A stretch of DNA of 33,586 bases from Kofleriaceae bacterium (lineage in GTDB: Bacteria > Myxococcota_A > Polyangia > Haliangiales > Haliangiaceae): assembly GCA_024762925.1 (NCBI GenBank), contig JANTGM010000060.1:1-33586 (forward strand), read 5' to 3'. How positions within the stretch are numbered: the stretch's first letter is position 1; each line of letters opens with the position of its first letter. The notes under the pieces were generated by a model. It searched no databases. It saw nothing but the letters and a program-made list of their open reading frames with translations, and was not told where the DNA came from. The position numbers and the translations under genes were made by a program. This document shows, piece after piece, positions 2,625-33,586 of this stretch.

Positions 2625-4838
2625 CTAGTGCGCAGCGACGTCATCGGAGCTCATCGAGTTGAGAGCCTCCAGCAACACCGGCTCGATACTCTTTGTGAGC
2701 GCTGCAGGATGGTAGAAAGCGCCAAGCCAAATCTCGGTCTCAACCACACGGCCAAACACCACAAGCCGAAAGCGCTGCAAGCCCGACGCACCATCGACGC
2801 TCACGTCCAACTCGCCACTACGCCAAGGCTCCGGCAAGTTGAGATGACTGCGGGCCGAAGGCTTCGCACGGTCAAACCCCGCCCGAAGCGCACCACCGAG
2901 ATACTCTTCCTCGAGACGCTTGCTGATGCTCGCATCGAGTCCTTCAGAAGCTGGTAATCGACGCAGATCGAGCTGCACACCCACTCCAGGATCGTAGAGT
3001 TCGCGAGGAGAGACTTTGCTCCAAGCATTGGGCACGGTGATGCGCAACCCGCCGATGCTCTGTCGTTCTTGAGGATAGCCGCGAAGCGTTTGCGTGTAGT
3101 CGCTGGTGGCGACGGAAAAAGCCGCGAAGCCCAGCGCGCTGAGCGCCCCGGTTGCGATCAACACCGCACTGTACTTGCGAAGTTTTCCTAGTGACGTTGC
3201 GTTGCGAGACAGCAAGATTGTCGTTAGGGCGCCGCCCACGAATCCGCCAACATGCCCCCACTGATCGACAATCGGATAGAAAAGCCCGACTGCGAGTTGA
3301 GCAGCTGACAGCAGTAAGAGCACGCCAAAGAGAGGCCGCGCCCACGCTCTCGGATAGTGGCTTCGGTAGACGCCGAGTTCAGCGACCGCTGCTCCCATCA
3401 AACCAACCACGGCTCCTGAGGCTCCTACTGCGGTCGCGGCACCACCGAGATACGTGGATGCGATGGCTCCTGCAAACCCCGAAACCGCGTAGATGGCCAG
3501 GGTGCGCAGGGTTCCCTGCATTTGCTCAACGAGCCGCCCCAAGACCCAAAGACCGTAGACATTCAGCACGAGATGGGCGACACCGACATGCAAGAACATG
3601 GACGTGACCAAGCGCCACCACTCACCCGCAAGGCTCGCCGATTTGAGGTTGGCGCCAGCGGCAATCAGGCTACCAAGGTCGGTGATGCTGCCAAAGAGCA
3701 AGTAGACCGCCACTGAGGCGAGAATGTTTGCTGCGGCCATCACAGCGGTAAATGGCATGACCGAGAGAGGCACACTTGAGAGCCTCGGGAGAGCTCGCCC
3801 CGCGGGCTCGGAGCCGCCCTGCGAGTGCTGCGCTTCCGAGGCGCTCACGGTGAGGCGATCGGCCAATTCGGCAACTGCCAAGGGGACCGAGTGCGGACCG
3901 ACCTCACCCGGCCTATCCAAGCGCTTCAAGTGGGCCTTGGCGAGGTCGCTAGCCCGCTCATCGTCTTCGGTGAGTCGCACAGCCTCGCTAAGAGAAATTC
4001 TGGCCCCCGCCGAATCGCCCGCGTTCAGCCTGGCAATGCCGGACCAATAGTGGCGAGCTGCTAAGGGCATTTTGGCTAAGGGGCCGTCGGGGCCCACGAG
4101 CGCCTCAACCGGTCCTGTCCTCCCCAAAAAGGCCAAGAACACCATACGTGCGCGCGCCACCAAGGTTGCCAATATGGGTTCTTTCGCCAGTGGTGATTCC
4201 TCGATCCGGGTCATCAAGGTGGCAGCTTCTTCTAGGTCGCCATTTTCGCAATAGGCCCTCACCATCTCGACCACGAGCTGCGGCGAGCCTGGCCGTTCGT
4301 GGCGCCCTCGCATTCGCTCATAGTCCTCGATTGCCGCAGCCCAGCGTTGCGCGTAGAGATAGGTCATCACAACGCGCTCTTCGAGAATGCGACGCCCCAC
4401 AGCGTCATCCACTTCTGCCTTGCGAGCCTTGAGCGCATCGACGATGTCCTGCTCGCGCCCTTCGCGAACGGCCAGGATCGTTTCGATGAGTTCGATCTCA
4501 CTGGTGGCGCCCATGCCGGGCTGCAGAAGCTCCCGTAGTTCGGCCAGTATCTTTGCGATGCGGAGCCGGTCTTGCGCCATAAAGCGTCGCCCAAGATCGC
4601 GCACCATCGCCGGTAGCATCACCAAGCAGAACGCAGCGCCAATTGCCACTGTTCCTACCGTGCTCGAGATTGAACTCGGCCCGTTGGTGGCCCGATCCAC
4701 AAACGCCACGAGGGCCAACACAAGATCGGCTAGGAGCATCAAGCCGTAGACCCGCTGGTGAGGCCCAAAGCGGCGGAGAATGGTGGGTCCGAGGTAGCCG
4801 GTCGACACCACCACGGAGAGCAGCAAGAGCTCAAACAT
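2625..4838 (-). CDS. Rhomboid protease with helical-repeat and C-terminal soluble domains
   Basis: A 737-aa membrane protein. An N-terminal pair of hydrophobic segments (1-20, 30-48) and a third (60-80) precede a soluble helical-repeat region resembling TPRs at about 90-310. The rhomboid core spans about 360-575: the HxxxxHxxxN motif (H417, H422, N426) after GEWWRLVTSMF, the catalytic serine in GASG (S474), and the catalytic histidine in QWGHVGG (H529). A soluble domain of about 155 residues follows (583-737), predicted to be mostly beta. Rhomboids cleave transmembrane substrates; here Ser474/His529 predict an active enzyme. It starts 5 bases after the accA stop, so it is the last gene of the mutL-miaA-accA operon. 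The helical repeats may recruit substrate; that is inference. No substrate with a recognisable rhomboid site is seen nearby. Confidence 0.9.
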   Translation of the reverse strand: MFELLLLSVVVSTGYLGPTILRRFGPHQRVYGLMLLADLVLALVAFVDRATNGPSSISSTVGTVAIGAAFCLVMLPAMVRDLGRRFMAQDRLRIAKILAELRELLQPGMGATSEIELIETILAVREGREQDIVDALKARKAEVDDAVGRRILEERVVMTYLYAQRWAAAIEDYERMRGRHERPGSPQLVVEMVRAYCENGDLEEAATLMTRIEESPLAKEPILATLVARARMVFLAFLGRTGPVEALVGPDGPLAKMPLAARHYWSGIARLNAGDSAGARISLSEAVRLTEDDERASDLAKAHLKRLDRPGEVGPHSVPLAVAELADRLTVSASEAQHSQGGSEPAGRALPRLSSVPLSVMPFTAVMAAANILASVAVYLLFGSITDLGSLIAAGANLKSASLAGEWWRLVTSMFLHVGVAHLVLNVYGLWVLGRLVEQMQGTLRTLAIYAVSGFAGAIASTYLGGAATAVGASGAVVGLMGAAVAELGVYRSHYPRAWARPLFGVLLLLSAAQLAVGLFYPIVDQWGHVGGFVGGALTTILLSRNATSLGKLRKYSAVLIATGALSALGFAAFSVATSDYTQTLRGYPQERQSIGGLRITVPNAWSKVSPRELYDPGVGVQLDLRRLPASEGLDASISKRLEEEYLGGALRAGFDRAKPSARSHLNLPEPWRSGELDVSVDGASGLQRFRLVVFGRVVETEIWLGAFYHPAALTKSIEPVLLEALNSMSSDDVAAH

Positions 4839-11867: not shown

Positions 11868-11897
11868 CAAAGAACCTACACCGCAAAGAACCTACAC
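11868..11897. repeat. Two-copy 16-base-period direct repeat over a stop codon
   Basis: The 14-base sequence CAAAGAACCTACAC occurs at 11868-11881 and again at 11884-11897. The second copy contains the stop codon (11892-11894) of the minus-strand histidine kinase; the first lies just beyond it. A local duplication, possibly slippage. Confidence 0.8.
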
Positions 11898-13097
11898 AGG
11901 CGCCGAAACGCTGAGATCGTCAGCTGGAGGGTTTGCCTTGGCGTGCTCGTCCAGTACCGAATCGGGAAGACGCAGAACAAAACATGCTGGCAAGGCAGGC
12001 CTCTCGGTGACGGAAATGCTGCCCCGATGGGCCACAGCCGCGAGCCGACAGAAGTACAGCCCTAAGCCTCGGTTTGCGCGTGCCCCTTTGCGGCGCCCTT
12101 CAAGCCGATAGTAGCGCTCAAACATGCGCTCGCGTTCTGCTTCGGGAATCGCGGGCCCATTGTTGCCCACCTCGACAATCAAGTCTGCGCCGTCAGCAAA
12201 CACCGAGAGGGCGACCTGGCCCTTGCGCGGAGCGTAGCGAACTGCGTTGTCGAGAAGGTTCTCCAGAATGCGGCCAATCAATTGTCGGTCAAATCTCGCT
12301 TGCAAGCCAACTGGGCATGAGACATCGAGCGAGAGTTTTCGCGCCGCGGTTGCCGTCTTGTAAAAGGTTGGCATGCGGCCGACGAATTTGTGCACGTCAA
12401 TGTGCTCTGGACTCGCCTGCAAGAGACCACCTTCAAACTCCTCCACATCCAAGAGCCCTGCCACCATGCTTAGAGTTCGCGAACTAAGCTCCGAGAGGTC
12501 GGTAAGGCATTGTCCTGCCATCGGATTCGCTGTGTCCTCCAAGGCCTCCTCAAGCAGTTGCACATTGCCGACAATGGCCGACAACGGATTGCGAAGGTCG
12601 TGCACAATCAGGGCGGCAAGGGTACGGCGGCGCTCTTGCTCGCGCTCAAGTTCGGCATTCAGATTGACAAGGTCTGCCTGAACTTGCTGCCTGGCGATGA
12701 GGGCAGCAACTCGCACGAGAAACTCTTTGGGCGAAACCGGGGTAGCCACGAAGTCATCGCAAGCACCGGCAAAGCCCTCCACCTCGGCCTCGATGCGATG
12801 CCGGTCTCCAAACGCAATAACCGGCAAGAATGCCTGCTTTCCTGCCCGTTCTTTGAGTTTCTGACCAAGCTCAATCGAACTCGGTGCCGTCAAATCCAGA
12901 CTCACCACAGCAGCTCCCAACAGGGACGGCTCACAGTGCGCTAGGGCTTCCTCGCCGCTTGTGAACACAGCGCAGTGATAGTTCATCTGCTCTAGCGCAC
13001 TCACTAGGAGTTGCACTTCCTCAGATTGCGGCTCCTTGTGAACCACGACAACTTTTGCGCCGGCTCCGGTGTCTTCAGGGGGCGGACTCTTGCTCAT
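11892..13097 (-). CDS. Receiver-histidine kinase hybrid
   Basis: A soluble kinase of 401 aa taking the ATG at 13097; a TTG at 13115 would overlap the upstream gene by 8 bases. Residues about 14-136 are a receiver. The strand with the phosphoacceptor keeps Asp (SLDLTAP, about D68), but the acidic pair is replaced (VVVVHKEP) and the conserved Lys is replaced (VATPVS, Thr for Lys). A coiled coil (about 137-160) leads to the HisKA motif VHDLRNPL with His166, then the ATPase domain: N-box ENLLDNAVRYAP, G1 variant NNGPAIP, F-box FERYYR and G2 GLGLYFC. Histidine kinase activity looks possible. No transmembrane segment is seen, so it is likely cytosolic. It lies 10 bases after the FHA-GGDEF gene and is probably co-transcribed with it. 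Confidence 0.88.
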   Translation of the reverse strand: MSKSPPPEDTGAGAKVVVVHKEPQSEEVQLLVSALEQMNYHCAVFTSGEEALAHCEPSLLGAAVVSLDLTAPSSIELGQKLKERAGKQAFLPVIAFGDRHRIEAEVEGFAGACDDFVATPVSPKEFLVRVAALIARQQVQADLVNLNAELEREQERRRTLAALIVHDLRNPLSAIVGNVQLLEEALEDTANPMAGQCLTDLSELSSRTLSMVAGLLDVEEFEGGLLQASPEHIDVHKFVGRMPTFYKTATAARKLSLDVSCPVGLQARFDRQLIGRILENLLDNAVRYAPRKGQVALSVFADGADLIVEVGNNGPAIPEAERERMFERYYRLEGRRKGARANRGLGLYFCRLAAVAHRGSISVTERPALPACFVLRLPDSVLDEHAKANPPADDLSVSAPV

Positions 13098-13107
13098 CTC
13101 GATACGA

Positions 13108-13998
13108 CTATCCAATTACCCGGTTCCGGCCCTGCTCTTTGGCGAGGTAGAGTTTTTCATCTGCCAGCTTCACCAGATCTTCTGGGGCTTGCAACTCTGG
13201 AGTTAGGCACGCCACACCAACAGAGACCGTCAGAGGAATTCTTACGTCCTCAAATTCGAAGACAGTGCGTTCAACCAGCATACGCACCTTCTCGGCAAAG
13301 GCTGTTGCGTTTGCCGTGTCAATCTCGGGAAGTACAATCGCAAACTCCTCACCACCATATCGAGCGAGTATATCCTCACGGCGAATGCGAGTTTTGATCG
13401 TAGCCGCAAGCTGTCGCAAGATGTGATCGCCTGCAAGGTGACCGTGGGTATCGTTGATCTCCTTGAAGTGATCAATGTCGAACATGATCAGCGAGAGGTT
13501 TCGCCGATAGCGATGTGCGCGACCAATCTCACGCTCGAGAGTTTCCACGAAGTAGCGCTTGTTGAAAATCTGCGTGAGGCCGTCGATGGTCGTGAGGCGA
13601 TAAATCTCCTCGTGGTAGGCGTTTTCGATATTGGTGCCGACGAGGAACTTGAAGATGCACCGCCCAACCTTGATGAAGTCGCCATCGCGGAGCACGTACT
13701 CATCCACGAGTTCATCGTTGACATACGTGCCATTTGTGGACCCAAGGTCGCGCAGGAGCACAGTCTGCCCCGTGTTGATGAGTTTGCAGTGGTTGCGGGA
13801 AACCGACTCTTGATCAATTTGCACATCGGCACTGGAAGACCTGCCAATGGAAACGTTTTTCTGGTCGACGTTGTACTTCTTGCCGAGGTCCAACCCGTAG
13901 ATCACCACAAGGCAAGCGTCTCGCGTTGCGGCAGGTTTCGCTGCAACGTTCGCGATGACGGTGACGACCGTCTTATTTCCCACTCCCGTGTCACTCAA
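13108..13998 (-). CDS. FHA-GGDEF diguanylate cyclase
   Basis: A 296-aa protein. Residues about 28-118 form an FHA domain, which binds phosphothreonine: [22 protein letters not shown] and [12 protein letters not shown]. Residues about 135-296 form a GGDEF domain that makes cyclic di-GMP from two GTP: metal site [15 protein letters not shown], active-site motif GGEEF (215-219) and product-inhibition site RRED (206-209) at the correct five-residue spacing. Catalysis and feedback inhibition both look intact. The start is uncertain: the frame begins at a TTG (13998), with a GTG at codon 6. The histidine kinase gene follows after 10 bases. A Ser/Thr kinase that would supply the FHA ligand is not in the window. 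Confidence 0.93.
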
Positions 13999-25962: not shown

Positions 25963-27711
<1,749 letters not shown>

Positions 27712-29004
27712 GTGAATCGGAAACTACTTAGCTCATTCTTATTTGGCAGCCTAGCCCTGGGCAGCGCTGGTCTCACCGCCTGTGTTGGCGAAGCTCCTGG
27801 TGAAAACGAGGGAACCGAAGCCGATGCTGGCGCTGGAGCAGCAGACGCGGCCCCTGAAGCTGATGCGGGTGAAGAAATCCCCACAGAACTAGCGGTGTCG
27901 GGAAAGGCCATCGACTACTTTGCCGCCAACCTCGGCGGAACACCGGTTGTCGCAAATGCAAGTCTGGCGACAGAAGGACTCGATCCAGTTGTTGAGACAC
28001 TCGCCGATGCACTTGGCGTCTTCACGATGGATGTCTTGCCAGCAAGTTTGTTCTACGTGACTGCAACGGCACCAGGCTACGCACCTTCACGCAACGCCTC
28101 CACACAACTTCTAGACGAGCCATTGGAACAGGATCAGTACCTCGGTTCGCTCCCGGGTATTGCACGGCAGTACGCCGGTGCAGGTGGTCTTGCGCCCATC
28201 GTTCCAACACCAGGCAATGGCATCATCATGGTCAACTTGCTTCGCAACAACGGCGAGCCAGCGATTGACGTGCCTGTTGCAGACATTGTGCTCGCGAGCC
28301 TTGAGGCTCCCGAAGTCCCAATCGGCACAGCCTACCTCGTCGATCCACTCACAACGGATTTGTCTCCAATCGATGTGACACTTGTGAGTGCTGTTGATGG
28401 CAACAACACCGCACGTGCCGGTTTCCTCGACGTTCCTCCTGGCGACTACACCATCACCACAACGATTCCTGGTGGCGGCGGCGGCGGCGGTGGCGGCGGC
28501 GGCGGTGGCGGCGGTGACATCCAGACCACGCAAGTCACGGTTAGCACTGACGGCATCACGTTTGCGCGTAGCGTTGGCGAGGGCGGCGGAGGCGGAGGAG
28601 GTGGTGGAGGCGGCGGTGGTGCAGCAACCATAATCCTCGATCCAAACGCCCCACTCGGCTTCACTGAGGACATCTACCCCATTCTTCAGACGGTGGCCAC
28701 AGGTGGCGATGGCTGTGTAGGCTGTCATGATGCTCTGCATCCTCTGCCCTTCACGGGAACCCCTGAGGATACTCTGGCGCTCCTTCTTCTCGATGCTATC
28801 GACCCAGCTGGTGTTCCACGCATCAACCTACTTGAGCCAGCGCTCTCACCGTTCGTGACAAATCCTGTCTACGAGGCCATTCCAAACCATCCAAATGCCT
28901 TTTGGACCGTGAACTCCAACCACTACCAAGGAATCCTGGCGTGGATTGCCCAAGGCGCCGCTCTACTTCGTGCTGATGCTGTTCTGCCGGAACCTCCGGC
29001 CTAG
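27712..29004 (+). CDS. Lipoprotein with polyglycine tracts and c-type haem motif
   Basis: A 430-aa protein. The start is the GTG at 27712, chosen for the GGAG nine bases ahead and because the signal follows directly. The lipobox is LTAC with Cys24, followed by an Ala/Asp/Gly/Glu linker (to about 65). A beta-rich region covers about 65-250, with carboxypeptidase-regulatory-like features (FLDVPPGDYTITTTI). Two polyglycine tracts (254-268, 15 residues; 291-303, 13 residues) flank a short beta segment. The C-terminal 125 residues contain C335-V-G-C-H339, a covalent haem c site, in a context FTEDIYPILQ...CVGCH and ILAWIAQGA seen in many myxobacterial extracytoplasmic proteins. No distal Met ligand is obvious. 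Probable outer-membrane, redox-linked or structural lipoprotein; partner unknown. Confidence 0.85.
   Translation: MNRKLLSSFLFGSLALGSAGLTACVGEAPGENEGTEADAGAGAADAAPEADAGEEIPTELAVSGKAIDYFAANLGGTPVVANASLATEGLDPVVETLADALGVFTMDVLPASLFYVTATAPGYAPSRNASTQLLDEPLEQDQYLGSLPGIARQYAGAGGLAPIVPTPGNGIIMVNLLRNNGEPAIDVPVADIVLASLEAPEVPIGTAYLVDPLTTDLSPIDVTLVSAVDGNNTARAGFLDVPPGDYTITTTIPGGGGGGGGGGGGGGGDIQTTQVTVSTDGITFARSVGEGGGGGGGGGGGGGAATIILDPNAPLGFTEDIYPILQTVATGGDGCVGCHDALHPLPFTGTPEDTLALLLLDAIDPAGVPRINLLEPALSPFVTNPVYEAIPNHPNAFWTVNSNHYQGILAWIAQGAALLRADAVLPEPPA
28471..28515 (+). repeat. Polyglycine tract 1 (GGC/GGT codons)
   Basis: Fifteen consecutive Gly codons, of which eleven are GGC and four GGT. The near-trinucleotide repeat makes this locus prone to length change by slippage in steps of one codon. 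Confidence 0.95.
28582..28620 (+). repeat. Polyglycine tract 2 (mixed Gly codons)
   Basis: Thirteen consecutive Gly codons using GGC, GGA and GGT. The mixed codons argue against simple slippage expansion and suggest that the amino-acid tract itself is maintained. Confidence 0.95.
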
Positions 29005-29169: not shown

Positions 29170-30597
29170 ATGCAGACTCCAGATGACGCTCATCCCTTCC
29201 GTGACTCTAGCGCTGGCGTAAATGCCAAGCGAGACAAACTCTTAGGCGCGAGGCGGGCGGACCTAGCCTACATGTCGCACGCGATTCGCCGTACCTTCGT
29301 CGGCCGCAGTGCGCGAATTGGAGCCAGCGTGGCACTGTTTCTCGGCGGAGCAGTCGTTCTAGCCGCAACCGTCTCATCGGACTTTGCAGAGTTTGTTGCC
29401 TCCCTTCTTCCAGGAGAAGCTCCTGCGCCACTGGCCAACCTTCTCTTTGGCACATGGATCATCGCGGTGCTCGGTGGCCTCATGGCTCGCAGCATCTCAG
29501 AGCGTCGCTTCACCCTAGCGATGTCAAAGGCTGTGCTGCCCTCTGCGGATGCACACCAAGATGTTGCTAGGCTTGCACATGAGAGCCCAGATGCGGTGGG
29601 GCGTCGTATGGCACATCGCCAGGGTCGAATCGGCCGAGCAGTGCCAGTTCTGGCAGCAGGCTTCGTGCTTCCCGCGACGGCGATCGCTGGCAAACTCGCC
29701 ATCGATGCAGGTGGCTACCCAAGCCTCGATGCATTTGAGTTCCTCTTGCCGAGTGCAGCTTCCCTGGCGGTTGGATTCGCAAGCCTCGCAACACTCTTTG
29801 CCGCAGTCCTATACTACAAGCCAAAGCGCGCGCCTTTGGCACTCCCCGTACTCACGGTGGTGCATGCGGCGTTCGTAGGATCACAACACTGGCCGTACCT
29901 CGTTGTTGGTGCGATAGCGCTTGCCGTGATGGCGTGGCGAATCCAGCAGCGTCAGCTACACGAGGAAATCGTGCTTGGAGAGGATGGCGCCCCGCTCCCA
30001 AAGCCCCTCTATCTTCGCAAACGACTGCGCAGCACCTTGAGCCGCACCCTCGCCCGCCTAAGAGATCTTCGGAACTTCCGACCTCGTCGCGTGCACGCTC
30101 TTGGGCTTGGCCTTGTTGCTGTCGCTGGTGCGTCCCTGTACTTGCACACCTCTGCGCAAATTGCCGAAGCGCGCCCAAAAGCGCATCTAACGCCCATTGA
30201 CAGCATCGTGGTAAACAGCCAACCGGGAGATATCCAATTGCTTGAATCTGGCGACGGCCTCACGGTGAAGTTTGACTTCATGGGCCAGACAACGGGACTT
30301 GAGGCTGGATACCTGCTGGACGGCGCCGTCATACCTCCGGGCTGGCGCGCCACGGTGACTGCGTACAATCTCGATGCAAGTGGCGCATTCACTCTCTCCT
30401 TCTTTGGAGACGAAGCGCCGCCCCGACATCTCTCCCACGATCAGGGCACGCTCACTGTGCTGCACGACAACTGCACCACAGAGCCCTTGCCGCTGCAACT
30501 CACAGCGACGCCCTATGGGACCCAAGAATTCGACTCTCAAGGAGCCGAGCTCACCATGCGATACAAGGTGACGCTAGAGCTCATCAATGAGTGCTAG
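29170..30597 (+). CDS. Multi-pass membrane protein with C-terminal extracytoplasmic domain
   Basis: A 475-aa protein with ATG at 29170. A charged cytosolic N-terminus (1-48) is followed by hydrophobic segments near 50-68, 88-105, 155-172, 190-212, 220-258 and 310-327. A charged stretch (about 262-308, rich in Arg) lies before the last one. The final 150 residues are soluble and beta-rich (IQLLESGDGLTVKFDFMG; GAFTLSFFGDEAPP) with Cys pairs near the end. No family recognised. A terminator-like hairpin separates it from the lipoprotein upstream. Its TAG stop overlaps the stop of the opposite-strand copper-protein gene (both in CTAG at 30594-30597). Confidence 0.75.
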   Translation: MQTPDDAHPFRDSSAGVNAKRDKLLGARRADLAYMSHAIRRTFVGRSARIGASVALFLGGAVVLAATVSSDFAEFVASLLPGEAPAPLANLLFGTWIIAVLGGLMARSISERRFTLAMSKAVLPSADAHQDVARLAHESPDAVGRRMAHRQGRIGRAVPVLAAGFVLPATAIAGKLAIDAGGYPSLDAFEFLLPSAASLAVGFASLATLFAAVLYYKPKRAPLALPVLTVVHAAFVGSQHWPYLVVGAIALAVMAWRIQQRQLHEEIVLGEDGAPLPKPLYLRKRLRSTLSRTLARLRDLRNFRPRRVHALGLGLVAVAGASLYLHTSAQIAEARPKAHLTPIDSIVVNSQPGDIQLLESGDGLTVKFDFMGQTTGLEAGYLLDGAVIPPGWRATVTAYNLDASGAFTLSFFGDEAPPRHLSHDQGTLTVLHDNCTTEPLPLQLTATPYGTQEFDSQGAELTMRYKVTLELINEC

Positions 30598-31553
30598 AAA
30601 ATGCAGGCGAAACCAAAGGCGCTTGAAGGCGCCTTTGGATAGCGGTACATGCCAGCGAAGCACATCTCTTCCTCAGAAGAATCCCCAAACCCTACCATCT
30701 GTCCAGTTGTGTTGTTGTAGCCACAGGTAACGCGGATCTTGTCACCTTGACTTAGCGAGACTGGAGGGATTTCATAGAGCTTCTGGTCGTAGAAGTCGTA
30801 GGCCTCATCGTGCAGCATCTCAACACTGTTGCCACGAAGCGCTTCGACTTTCATGTGGGAACCGAGCTGGTGCATATGCGGAGCAACCGTTAGCAAGGTG
30901 AAGTCTTGTGACATAGTGCACGTCCCAATTTGCTCGGTTGGCCCTGGAACTACCTGCAGGCCGATCGCCTTTCCCATGAGCACAGACTCCGCCTCATACT
31001 CGATGTTCGAAGCAGTTGTGAGCTGGACATCGGTCCCCGACGTGCCTGTGATGGCAGTGTCTGAAACATTAAACAGGTGCAGGTTGAGGACAAGTTGTTG
31101 CCCCGCGGGAATCTTTACGCCAATGCCCTCGGGAAACTGAAACAGGGATTCGCCAATACCCGAACCAAAGATCATTTGGTTGGCATTGGTGCCCGCATCG
31201 CAATCTGTGATTCCGTCAGGACCGCTGGGCTCGCCAACTGTGAGCACAGTGTGATGAGTGCCAACCGGCCCAATCGACTTGAATGCCGAGATGTACATGT
31301 CCTCTTGCACGGTGAGTCGTACGCACTTGTAAAACTCGGTGGCTGCGGGGATTTCCCACGTTCCATCGACAAGGCGCGTCCACTCGCCATTGACCTCACC
31401 TCCATCAGCACTTCCTGCAGCCCCAGCATCTGCTGTGGCATCGGCGCCACCATCGGCGCCATTCCCTTGCTGCTGATCATCCCCGCCACCACATGCGGCG
31501 AACGTGAACACAAGTGCGACCAAAGAACTGCGGAAGGTGGTGGATCTTGACAT
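30594..31553 (-). CDS. PHM-like copper type II monooxygenase-domain lipoprotein
   Basis: A 319-aa protein with ATG at 31553. The lipobox FAAC has Cys21, followed by an Ala/Asp/Gly linker (22-55) of the myxobacterial type. The rest resembles the two-domain core of copper type II ascorbate-dependent monooxygenases (peptidylglycine alpha-hydroxylating). Candidate CuH ligands: His100-His101 in GTHHTVL and His159 in LNLHLFN. Candidate CuM ligands: His226 and His228 in APHMHQLGSH and Met297 in GDSSEEEMCF. The set is complete, so copper binding is predicted. The substrate of bacterial members is mostly unknown. It lies 40 bases downstream of the M17 aminopeptidase gene on the same strand and may be co-transcribed. 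Confidence 0.8.
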   Translation of the reverse strand: MSRSTTFRSSLVALVFTFAACGGGDDQQQGNGADGGADATADAGAAGSADGGEVNGEWTRLVDGTWEIPAATEFYKCVRLTVQEDMYISAFKSIGPVGTHHTVLTVGEPSGPDGITDCDAGTNANQMIFGSGIGESLFQFPEGIGVKIPAGQQLVLNLHLFNVSDTAITGTSGTDVQLTTASNIEYEAESVLMGKAIGLQVVPGPTEQIGTCTMSQDFTLLTVAPHMHQLGSHMKVEALRGNSVEMLHDEAYDFYDQKLYEIPPVSLSQGDKIRVTCGYNNTTGQMVGFGDSSEEEMCFAGMYRYPKAPSSAFGFACIF

Positions 31554-31593: not shown

Positions 31594-32946
31594 CTACTTT
31601 CGTGCAAATGCGCCAATGAGGCTCCGAAGGGGAGCACCAGTAGCGCCATAGCCCGTACCCGGTGCCTCGCCTGACCAATTCCACGTCGAGGCAAAGATGT
31701 CGAAATGACACAGTGGCGCGTTCGCAAACTCTAATAAGAAGTGAGCTGCATTACGAGAGCCGGCGCCCGCAGATGCATTGCCTGGCAGGCGAGCAGTGTT
31801 TCGCAGATCCGCTTCTTTGTCTACATTGGCGATTGTGTGCCAGAGGCGCTTTGGAAAGAAGTGAAAGTCCTCGCCCATGGCAGCCCCGGAGTTCTCGATG
31901 CGGGTCTGCAAGTCGCTGTTGGCGAAGTGCACAGGCGTGGCAAAGGGACCGTAGGCATTCAGCGCAGCGGTTGTGAGCGTGGCAAAGCAAAGGTATTCCG
32001 CCGGGGCGTAGGTGTCCCCCGCATACGCAAGGGCGTCGGCGAGCACCAGGCGGCCTTCTGCATCCGTGTGATCGATGCGAACCGTCTTTCCAGAATAACT
32101 CTCAACCAACGCACCGGGTCGCATCGCCTTTTCACCAACCGCGTTCTCGCAGGTGGGCACGACCAAGAGCAGAGGTTTGTCGTAGCCGCTCTCTACCAGC
32201 GATTCAAAGAGTGCACAGGCGATTGCCGCTCCCCCCATGTCGTTCTTCATCATCGAGACAAAGCTCGCGTACGGCTTCACGTTGATGCCGCCAGTGTCAA
32301 AGGTAATGCCCTTGCCGACAATGGCCAGTGGTGCTTCCGTGGCCCCTTTGGGTCGGTACTCTGCCAGGACGAGGCGTGGTGGGGATTGCTCACTGGCACC
32401 ACCGACAGCAAGAAGAAGGCGCAAGCCCTTCTCGTGCAGCTCGTCTTCCTCGAGAACGGTGACCTTGACGTCGTCATGATCGGCAGCCCACTTGCCGACG
32501 TCGTTGGCGATCTGAATGCTGGTTCGGATACTTGGATCTTCGTTCACCCAGCGCCGGTACAGATCTTCTGCGCGGGCGATGCGCTCCATCTCAGCTTGAA
32601 TCTCCGCGTTCTCCGGGATGCTCACCCGCCCCTTACTGCGATGGTGGAGATCGAGAGCCACAGTCAGCAGTGTCGGGTCAGCGATTTCCGAACCGTCGAG
32701 AACAACGTCGCCCACCCGCACCATCCCGCCCAGGGCCTTGATCAGCTGGTCTACGACATAGCGCAGCTCGGTGGTAGCCAAGTCGGGCAAGGCCACCTCA
32801 ATTCGAGCGCCACCATCCGCCAATTCGAGCTTGGCGTGGGCACCACCAGTCGCTTTGACCTCGGTGCCTCCGCCCAATTCGGCGGACTCTGGGCGCAGCT
32901 TCACATACAAACTCAATTCTTCGATGGGGGACTCTTGCTTGCTCAC
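31594..32946 (-). CDS. Leucyl aminopeptidase family (M17) metallopeptidase
   Basis: A 450-aa protein. The frame is open upstream to 33411, but that part overlaps the divergent gene at 32996, so the GTG at 32946 (VSKQESPIEE) is chosen. The N-terminal domain is about 170 residues and diverged; the catalytic domain has VGKGITFDTGG (K212, D217), MKNDMGGAA (D236), and the signature HTDAEGRLVLADAL (D295, E297, R299), which has His where most members have Asn. These residues bind two metal ions and the substrate. M17 enzymes are cytosolic hexamers that remove N-terminal residues from peptides. The divergent start at 32996 leaves only 49 bases for both promoters. Confidence 0.92.
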   Translation of the reverse strand: MSKQESPIEELSLYVKLRPESAELGGGTEVKATGGAHAKLELADGGARIEVALPDLATTELRYVVDQLIKALGGMVRVGDVVLDGSEIADPTLLTVALDLHHRSKGRVSIPENAEIQAEMERIARAEDLYRRWVNEDPSIRTSIQIANDVGKWAADHDDVKVTVLEEDELHEKGLRLLLAVGGASEQSPPRLVLAEYRPKGATEAPLAIVGKGITFDTGGINVKPYASFVSMMKNDMGGAAIACALFESLVESGYDKPLLLVVPTCENAVGEKAMRPGALVESYSGKTVRIDHTDAEGRLVLADALAYAGDTYAPAEYLCFATLTTAALNAYGPFATPVHFANSDLQTRIENSGAAMGEDFHFFPKRLWHTIANVDKEADLRNTARLPGNASAGAGSRNAAHFLLEFANAPLCHFDIFASTWNWSGEAPGTGYGATGAPLRSLIGAFARK

Positions 32947-32995
32947 CCGTCGAGGGTAGCCGACAACGCGAGCCTCTGTGTATGCTCCGCACACA

Positions 32996-33586
32996 ATGTC
33001 CAAGAGTTCTAGCTTTGCCCTCTCCCAGTTCTTGCTTTCGGCAACCGCCGGACTCGCAGCGATTTGCCTCCCGCAGCACGCTTGGGCCCAAGGTGAGCCC
33101 GAGCCCGAGCCCGAGCCCGAGGAAACCGCTCCTGCTGGCGACGAAGTCGAGCTCTCTGATGAAGGCATCGCCGACGAGTCTGACGATTTGGATTTCAGCT
33201 CAGATACGGGCGCCGACGAAAACCCCGGCGATCCCAACTCGACATTCAGCGCAACAGATGATGACAAGCCAAAGGTCAAGGCGTCCAAAGCGGAGAGCGG
33301 GTATCCAACACGCTCCATTGATAGGCCGCTGAATCTACCTGGCGGTATGGTACAGGTCGCCCTGGAAATTCCTGTGGCCGTCGATCCGTTCGCGGTTGCT
33401 GGCACGCTCACAGGAAGTTACGGAATCACCCGCGATGTTGAGATAGGCCTGCAGTACAGCCCGGGGCGATACGCGGATGAGTTCTCGGTTGGTCGTGCGG
33501 TTGCCATCGAAGCGCAGTACTTGGTCACCGACTTCATTGCGGCAGAGCTCTCGATTCCTCTCTACCTCGATCCCTTCGCGATGGGC
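32996..33586 (+). CDS. Probable outer-membrane protein, 5' part only
   Basis: The frame runs from ATG 32996 to the window edge without a stop (197 codons seen). A signal peptide (about 1-32, ending QHAWAQ) is followed by a Glu/Pro repeat (EPEPEPEPEE) and an Asp/Glu/Ser-rich linker to about residue 100. From about residue 115 (GGMVQVALEIPVAVDPF) alternating hydrophobic strands begin: GTLTGSYGITRDVEIGLQYS and AIEAQYLVTDFIAAELSIPL, as in outer-membrane beta-barrels. The rest is off the edge. It is divergent from the M17 gene. Confidence 0.8.
   Translation, partial: MSKSSSFALSQFLLSATAGLAAICLPQHAWAQGEPEPEPEPEETAPAGDEVELSDEGIADESDDLDFSSDTGADENPGDPNSTFSATDDDKPKVKASKAESGYPTRSIDRPLNLPGGMVQVALEIPVAVDPFAVAGTLTGSYGITRDVEIGLQYSPGRYADEFSVGRAVAIEAQYLVTDFIAAELSIPLYLDPFAMG

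Follow-up and report, generated by a model that had tools for sequence, protein, structure and literature searches.

The protein encoded at positions 30594-31553 of the window (the whole stretch of 33,586 nucleotides that was analysed) is probably a dicopper C-H hydroxylase of the PHM/DBH type and not a peptide amidator, judging from its sequence and a predicted structure. PHM and DBH are textbook animal enzymes that use copper in the production of peptide hormones and noradrenaline. The reading that we consider rather likely is a lipid-anchored extracytoplasmic dicopper monooxygenase of the PHM/DBH superfamily, which would hydroxylate a C-H bond of a non-peptide, mostly nonpolar small molecule with the help of a periplasmic electron donor. 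Both sets of copper ligands, a two-domain beta fold, the disulfide cysteines, a lipobox and the loss of the peptide clamp are seen in the sequence or in the model.

Gene, lipoprotein signal and copper ligands

The open reading frame ran from 31553 to 30594 on the minus strand and was translated into 319 aa, with the ATG at 31553 and the stop codon at 30594-30596. On the plus strand over 30594-31553, reading in frame 1 was interrupted by stops. The original prediction had placed here a lipoprotein of 319 aa with all the HH, H, HxH and M ligands, and this was confirmed, the gene being on the minus strand. The features were as follows.

30594-31553, minus strand: predicted PHM/DBH-type dicopper monooxygenase lipoprotein, 319 aa (translation, PF03712, PDB profile matches, AF2 and fold comparison)
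31491-31553, minus strand: putative lipoprotein signal peptide with lipobox FAA-C21, residue +2 Gly (sequence, cysteine column)
31383-31490, minus strand: Asp/Ala/Gly-rich linker, residues 22-57, mostly of low pLDDT (sequence, AF2)
31251-31256, minus strand: H100 and H101, predicted CuH ligands, PHM H107 and H108 (alignment, 112/112)
31077-31079, minus strand: H159, predicted CuH ligand, PHM H172 (alignment, 112/112)
30882-30884, minus strand: A224 at the place of PHM R240 (alignment; no R or K in 112/112)
30870-30878, minus strand: H226-M227-H228, the His pair being predicted CuM ligands, PHM H242 and H244 (alignment, both His 112/112)
30783-30785, minus strand: Q257, equivalent to the active-site glutamine Q272 of PHM (alignment, 112/112)
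30663-30665, minus strand: M297, predicted CuM thioether ligand, PHM M314 (alignment, 112/112)
30651-30659, minus strand: F299-A300-G301 at the place of PHM N316-L317-Y318 (alignment)
31594-33012, minus strand: neighbouring M17 aminopeptidase, 40 nt upstream on the same strand, start codon uncertain, a divergent gene beginning at 32996
29170-30597, plus strand: neighbouring convergent gene for a 475-aa protein with four hydrophobic segments, stop codons overlapping (CTAG), no Pfam match

The alignment named A4 comprised the protein and 47 relatives from named contigs (48 rows), and its loci were retrieved with sequence patterns containing HH or EMC. Six of the 53 named loci stayed outside it, namely L066 (start unclear), L079 (no usable frame) and the partial matches L081, L084, L085 and L087. 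The main alignment joined these 48 rows with 64 further Myxococcota proteins from 60 loci, which were among the best Pfam scores of the phylum, giving 112 bacterial proteins (108 distinct sequences among the aligned cores) plus PHM and DBH. A separate set of 33 rows, the protein included, was obtained from whole-genome protein and family searches with no selection by HH or EMC patterns. The profile A2 was built from 28 relatives, with L004, L012, L021, L023 and L031 omitted.

The N-terminus carried a lipoprotein-type signal, MSRSTTFRSSLVALVFTFAA/C/GGG, followed by the low-complexity linker rich in Asp, Ala and Gly. The lipobox cysteine column held C in 33/33 rows (longest open reading frames, with the protein and its own-genome paralogues included) and in 48/48 A4 rows, the A4 starts having been picked using a lipobox pattern. 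By its signal peptide and lipobox cysteine, the 319-aa protein is a putative bacterial lipoprotein. It would be held by a lipid anchor, and the Gly at +2 points to an outer-membrane site.

In the alignment, H100, H101 and H159 of the CuH site matched PHM H107, H108 and H172, and H226, H228 and M297 of the CuM site matched PHM H242, H244 and M314. These six columns were identical in 112/112 Myxococcota proteins, the protein itself included, as well as in PHM and DBH, which is an upper estimate of conservation because the HH/EMC patterns and the top Pfam scores shaped the sampling. The six ligands were also kept in all 33 rows of the set chosen without these patterns. Moreover, Q257, E296, C277 and C298 (PHM Q272, E313, C293 and C315) were identical in all 112 bacterial proteins, PHM and DBH. 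The cysteines C77/C118, C212/C317 and C277/C298 aligned with PHM C81/C126, C227/C334 and C293/C315, which we take to be the disulfide pairs of PHM, and PHM C114 and C131 had no counterpart in the aligned protein. For DBH, the disulfide pairs C232-C283, C390-C503 and C466-C488 are given in part of the text of PMC4846438.

Homology to PHM and DBH and the predicted fold

The Pfam domain PF03712 (Cu2_monoox_C) was matched by the protein with an E-value of 3e-10 (40.2 bits versus a cut-off of 23) and by 48/48 A4 members at E<=0.01. The N-terminal Pfam copper domain, PF01082, had no match in the protein at E<=0.1 and matched just 1/48 A4 members at E<=0.01; its best match in the same genome was the paralogue on contig C154, at 5.5e-4 and below the cut-off. 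Despite this Pfam result, the N-terminal CuH domain was present by predicted fold (model residues 55-319 on 6ala_A 60-336) and by profile alignment. When the PDB was searched with the protein by phmmer, PHM was the best match (E=1.1e-5, residues 71-309), and the matches at E<=1 were exclusively PHM chains (12 distinct sequences). With the A2 profile, PHM was reached at 2.1e-23 and human DBH at 2.6e-15, and the 14 distinct sequences matched at E<=1 included no other protein. The matches to PF03712, by phmmer and by the A2 profile indicate that the copper-ligand set represents true homology and not chance histidines, and the PHM-type kinship originally proposed for it held. Homology, ligands, disulfide cysteines and predicted fold together support the membership of the protein in the copper type II monooxygenase (PHM/DBH) superfamily.

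A Peptidase_A4 Pfam match in the protein (E 0.037, below the cut-off, and found in 2/48 A4 members) was dismissed as chance. When the single sequence of L004, the haem-fused paralogue, was searched against the PDB, no copper enzyme was returned, and TIM-3 chains alone appeared at E 0.7 and above.

The AlphaFold2 model computed on A4 had a pTM of 0.79 and a mean pLDDT of 88.1, the averages by block reaching 94-98 across residues 61-310. By VIA-align, the model matched PHM 6ala_A with a Z of 26.2 (2.6 A, 256 residues) and DBH 4zel_A, tied with it for first place, with a Z of 25.6 (2.5 A, 261 residues), and the first unrelated fold, PNGase F, reached a Z of 8.6. A comparison with the PHM structure had been proposed at the outset, and ligands lying too far apart for two copper sites had been named as the finding that would speak against the assignment; as far as the superposition on 6ala_A and 4zel_A (256-261 residues, 2.5-2.6 A) tells, the predicted ligands are not so placed.

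The open PHM entries gave a Z of about 22.5 at 3.6 A with the same model. Foldseek TMq values were 0.68 for 4zel_A and 0.67 for 6ala_A versus 0.58 for the open 4zel_B and 0.55-0.63 for the open PHM entries, and by E-value the open 4zel_B ranked first, nearly tied. A second model, that of the distant clade member L076, gave Z values of 26.2 for 6ala_A, 24.8 for 5wja_D, 24.6 for 4zel_A and about 22.5 for open PHM. According to part of the text of PMC6123673, the H108A-PHM of 6ala, with citrate, has a closed conformation and a domain rotation of about 18 degrees, and the copper sites of wild-type PHM are 11.7 A apart. The portion of PMC4846438 concerned with 4zel describes chain A as the closed DBH chain, with copper sites 4-5 A apart. 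Both predicted models, which contain no copper, came nearer to the closed conformers (6ala_A and 4zel_A, Z 24.6-26.2) than to open PHM, which is a hint of a closed arrangement.

Substrate pocket and gene neighbourhood

The PHM residues R240, N316 and Y318 are presumably those that hold the peptide carboxylate, and none of them was retained in the aligned protein, which had A224, F299 and G301 in their columns. Neither R nor K occupied the R240 column in any of the 112 bacterial proteins. N was present in the N316 column in one of the 112, and Y in the Y318 column in 9/64 non-A4 Myxococcota proteins. DBH had Q, V and Y at the three columns; since it lacks both R240 and N316 and its substrate is different, the loss of these two residues accompanies a non-peptide substrate in one known case. 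In addition, a Q170-Q272-H108 water network in PHM is possibly required for peptide binding, as stated in a portion of PMC6123673. The Q170 column held N157 in the protein, N in 43/48 A4 members and Q in 49/64 of the others, with Q272 and H108 kept. The signature formed by the R240, N316 and Y318 columns was W-F-G in 15, S-F-D in 9 and A-F-G in 5 of the 48 A4 members; it falls into sets within A4, which looks like substrate diversification. A glycine-extended peptide is most probably not the substrate, because a mostly nonpolar set that varies between lineages has taken the place of the peptide-carboxylate residues. The lost residues suggest instead a small and mostly nonpolar compound, located either in the envelope or outside the cell.

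Peptide amidation, possibly in company with the M17 aminopeptidase, was the explanation considered first, and it was rejected for the lost carboxylate residues and for synteny limited to the genus. That the protein is a true peptidylglycine alpha-hydroxylating enzyme is highly improbable, although PHM is one of its closest solved relatives, the full ligand set and the Q272 equivalent are kept, and M17 lies directly upstream on the same strand in 3/3 genus members (gaps of 40, 39 and 104 nt for the start codons adopted). PHM R240, N316, Y318 and Q170 were all changed (to A, F, G and N), the protein was not sister to PHM in the tree, where PHM formed a long branch, and no PAL-type lyase was recognised, one of the three NHL proteins of the genome having been compared with the PDB. 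That NHL protein was nearest to the NHL domains of Thin/TRIM71, and PAL 3fvz came 36th at 1.7e-9, below TRIM/Thin and designed propellers; no PAL was fused to the protein itself. Furthermore, no hydrophobic segment was found in the M17 neighbour. Of the original interpretation, the PHM/DBH-type dicopper assignment stood on homology, ligands, cysteines and predicted fold, whereas the peptide-processing part did not stand, given the lost R240/N316/Y318, the partial test in which no lyase partner was recognised and an M17 gene shared with just two congeners.

These congeners, L035 and L036, had both the M17 gene (68-70% identical) and the 475-aa neighbour, which were not found in the other 51 of the 53 named loci at E<=1e-8, some loci ending near the gene. 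A four-gene block of the divergent gene from 32996, M17, the monooxygenase and the 475-aa protein was common to 3/3 genus members, the divergent gene being 58% identical to that in L036 and 51% to that in L035. Plain recent synteny can explain this genus-only block, because further genes seem, by eye, to be common to L035 and L036. Genes next to the monooxygenase were called in 16 of the 53 named loci, L037 yielding no usable calls. An APP1/HAD-like gene was found next to both the C95 paralogue and L047 (56% identical), Band_7 lay two genes away from the monooxygenase in L044, and chemotaxis-like genes adjoined L052 and L054 (by eye only). Neighbours thus recurred only inside small locus groups and differed between the groups, so the neighbourhood gives no substrate. 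As a guide to the substrate it was rejected, since no common partner emerged across the locus groups.

Under the preferred reading of a C-H hydroxylase acting on a non-peptide molecule, the CuM site (H226, H228 and M297) would bind O2 and the substrate, and the CuH site (H100, H101 and H159) would pass on the second electron, possibly with domain closure. The predicted product is the substrate hydroxylated at a C-H bond by monooxygenation, copper binding being presumed. The electrons might be supplied in the periplasm, for instance by a c-type cytochrome, instead of by ascorbate. A cytochrome-type donor is preferred over ascorbate because most of the sampled relatives outside the clade of the protein carry a fused haem-c domain; the donor is nevertheless a guess, since the protein itself lacks a haem domain and no redox gene was seen as a conserved neighbour.

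Family, haem-c fusions and known systems

Four family members were found in the same genome (6.8 Mb, 246 contigs), on contigs C60 (the protein itself), C95, C32 and C154. In the taxonomic family, 29/30 genomes (this one included) had matches, 3 to 14 each. PF03712 occurred in 156/283 genomes drawn from Myxococcota and in 0/14 control genomes. At E<=1e-78 to the A4 profile, a rough cut for the clade of the protein, matches were found in 11/283 genomes among those listed (8 candidates scored per genome). The 53 named loci came from Kofleriaceae, Polyangiaceae, Polyangia, Sandaracinus, Myxococcales/Myxococcota and delta-proteobacterial MAGs, together with one "uncultured bacterium" and one "Proteobacteria bacterium".

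Such bacteria are presumably predatory in lifestyle, and 3 to 14 family matches per genome would then fit digestive or surface roles. With a lipoprotein on a linker, and with an Abhydrolase_2 protein, among the few neighbours that had an annotation, encoded two genes upstream of the monooxygenase in L046, oxidation of a cell-surface or prey macromolecule in a predatory or saprophytic lifestyle, either of a polysaccharide in an LPMO-like manner or of protein side chains, could be considered. We regard it as very unlikely: a Pfam scan of the protein found no carbohydrate-binding domain (few neighbours were scanned), and a closed site, if real, would leave a polymer little room.

A CxxCH motif was present upstream of the HH pair, 127-215 residues away, in 48/64 of the fetched Myxococcota members, which may be a low count because the 16 proteins lacking it include L129, cut by a contig end, and L088, which starts at the edge of its stretch. 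In all 48 an MP motif followed within 95 residues after CxxCH, as MPP in 39. When 4 of these CxxCH proteins were scanned, the haem region corresponded to Pfam Cytochrome_CBB3 in all 4, and one match exceeded the cut-off. The C154 paralogue, counted apart from the 64, also had CxxCH upstream and the MP motif. No CxxCH was found in any of the 48 A4 rows, the protein included.

A quick maximum-likelihood tree of 119 rows was computed with SH-aLRT support only and a midpoint root for drawing only. The protein and its two congeners grouped with an SH-aLRT of 100, inside a group of 59 rows (SH-aLRT 97) that contained no haem-fused member and was separate from PHM and DBH. DBH grouped with other haem-less bacterial proteins, L088-L091 and L098 (SH-aLRT 91), and PHM was placed elsewhere; both PHM and L098 formed long branches. 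By this placement, the protein looks like a cousin and not an orthologue of PHM or DBH. A DBH-like role, the beta-hydroxylation of phenylethylamines or similar aromatic amines, is quite unlikely for it. DBH does equal PHM by fold (Z 25.6) and by identity to the protein (51/241 versus 51/244 columns), and it shares the lack of R240 and N316; however, DBH branches with the L090/L091/L098 types, it has Y at the Y318 position where the protein has G, and no DOMON match was found in the protein at E<=0.1, residues 22-57 being a short linker.

A non-catalytic copper-binding lipoprotein that has kept its ligands, such as a copper or redox sensor, a scavenger or a chaperone, is unlikely. It would agree with the A4 rows having no haem domain, the varying pocket residues and the lack of conserved catalytic neighbours among the loci seen, but a mere copper binder would not obviously need Q257 and E296, which are invariant with all the ligands over the 112 proteins, and the paralogue expansion with differing pocket signatures looks like substrate diversification.

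A wider proposal is tentative, and we hold it to be doubtful. In the Myxococcota, dicopper hydroxylases of the envelope would be numerous and diverse, usually taking their electrons from a built-in cytochrome c and not from ascorbate. In the haem-less lipoprotein branch, to which the protein belongs, the copper sites would come together and act as a single coupled binuclear centre, and the variable three-residue signature (W-F-G, S-F-D, A-F-G) would determine the non-peptide substrates.

The fold and the family are already known, such proteins having a place in Pfam under the copper type II name. In the open-access literature, by title or abstract start among the matches listed, no bacterial PHM-like lipoproteins or cytochrome-c fusions were found, nor any functional description or biochemistry of bacterial members or mention of the lost clamp. 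For the animal enzymes, the parts of PMC6123673 and PMC4846438 that deal with it leave open whether the copper pair works at 11-14 A (open) or at 4-5 A (closed). A bacterial branch that is compact, needs a single gene and keeps these ligands, in a family with many copies per genome, would be a tractable system for this question, and it would be a source of new C-H hydroxylases. It also suggests a haem-based electron supply replacing vitamin C.

Among the closest known systems, one from the same genome was the C95 paralogue (L003), 44% identical and alike in architecture and ligands; it differed in belonging to another subclade, in having W and Q at the PHM R240 and Q170 columns and in its neighbours. 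The haem-c-fused Cu2_monooxygenases of Myxococcota, such as L094 and L004 (the latter from the same genome), had the same dicopper core and ligands and carried CxxCH and MP, whereas the A4 set had no CxxCH. Rat PHM (1opm, 6ala) was identical in 51 of 244 aligned columns and shared the two-domain fold, the six copper ligands, Q272, E313 and three cysteine pairs. The protein differed from it in the replaced R240/N316/Y318 and Q170, the absent C114/C131, its lipoprotein nature and the lack of a recognised PAL partner. Human DBH (4zel), with 51 of 241 columns identical, had the fold and all the ligands in common with the protein, whose predicted conformation was nearer to the closed chain A than to the open chain B (TMq 0.68 versus 0.58). 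Unlike DBH, the protein was shorter, gave no DOMON match, had no C-terminal dimerisation part and occupied a separate branch of the tree.

Genes flanking the monooxygenase and elsewhere in the window

Two genes accompany the monooxygenase and the M17 aminopeptidase gene at this end of the window:
29170-30597, plus strand: protein of 475 aa containing roughly four hydrophobic segments, its C-terminal part being soluble
32996-33586, plus strand, truncated at the edge of the window: gene for an apparently secreted protein that contains EPEPEPEP, oriented divergently to the M17 gene

The 475-aa protein had no Pfam match, and its position beside the monooxygenase was conserved within the genus. The CTAG at 30594-30597 was common to the convergent genes of the monooxygenase and the 475-aa protein, so that their stop codons overlap. 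The EPEPEPEP protein possessed 51-58% identity to the same-position genes in the loci of two congeners (L035 and L036).

Farther away, the window held the following genes:
2625-4838, minus strand: 737-aa protein with a rhomboid protease domain and an N-terminal TPR region
13108-13998, minus strand: fusion of an FHA domain with a diguanylate cyclase (GGDEF) domain
27520-29004, plus strand: protein of 494 aa whose matches, to CarboxypepD_reg and to glycine-rich models, fall under the respective cut-offs

The FHA-GGDEF gene was adjoined by a histidine kinase gene with a weak receiver match (11892-13115).

Genes at other loci, in the own genome and beyond

The following genes were found at other loci:
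L148:943-1962, minus strand (contig C6 of the own genome): NHL-propeller protein, possibly carrying a lipobox
L003:453-1487, plus strand: APP1/HAD-like gene adjoining the own-genome paralogue on contig C95
L047:5675-6805, minus strand: APP1/HAD-like gene adjoining the L047 monooxygenase

The two APP1/HAD-like genes shared 56% identity, and the NHL-propeller protein showed likeness to the NHL domains of Thin/TRIM71.

Haem-c fusions and haem-less relatives

Among the 64 fetched Myxococcota proteins, the dicopper core was preceded by a fused cytochrome c domain (CxxCH, then MP) in 48, with examples at L094, L095, L100 and L102. The own genome also encoded such a fusion (L004:433-1857). The fused domain is possibly a built-in electron donor in place of ascorbate.

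Further members of the family were:
L069:7038-10062: tandem array of three lipoprotein-type dicopper monooxygenase genes in a single genome
L090:1942-3024, plus strand: haem-less bacterial dicopper protein

The bacterial proteins of L088, L089 and L091 were likewise haem-less; those of L088 and L089 carried, ahead of the core, several hundred residues that gave no Pfam match, and the frames of these two are perhaps over-extended. The match of the L090 protein to human DBH (phmmer, 1.4e-29) was far closer than that of the window protein.
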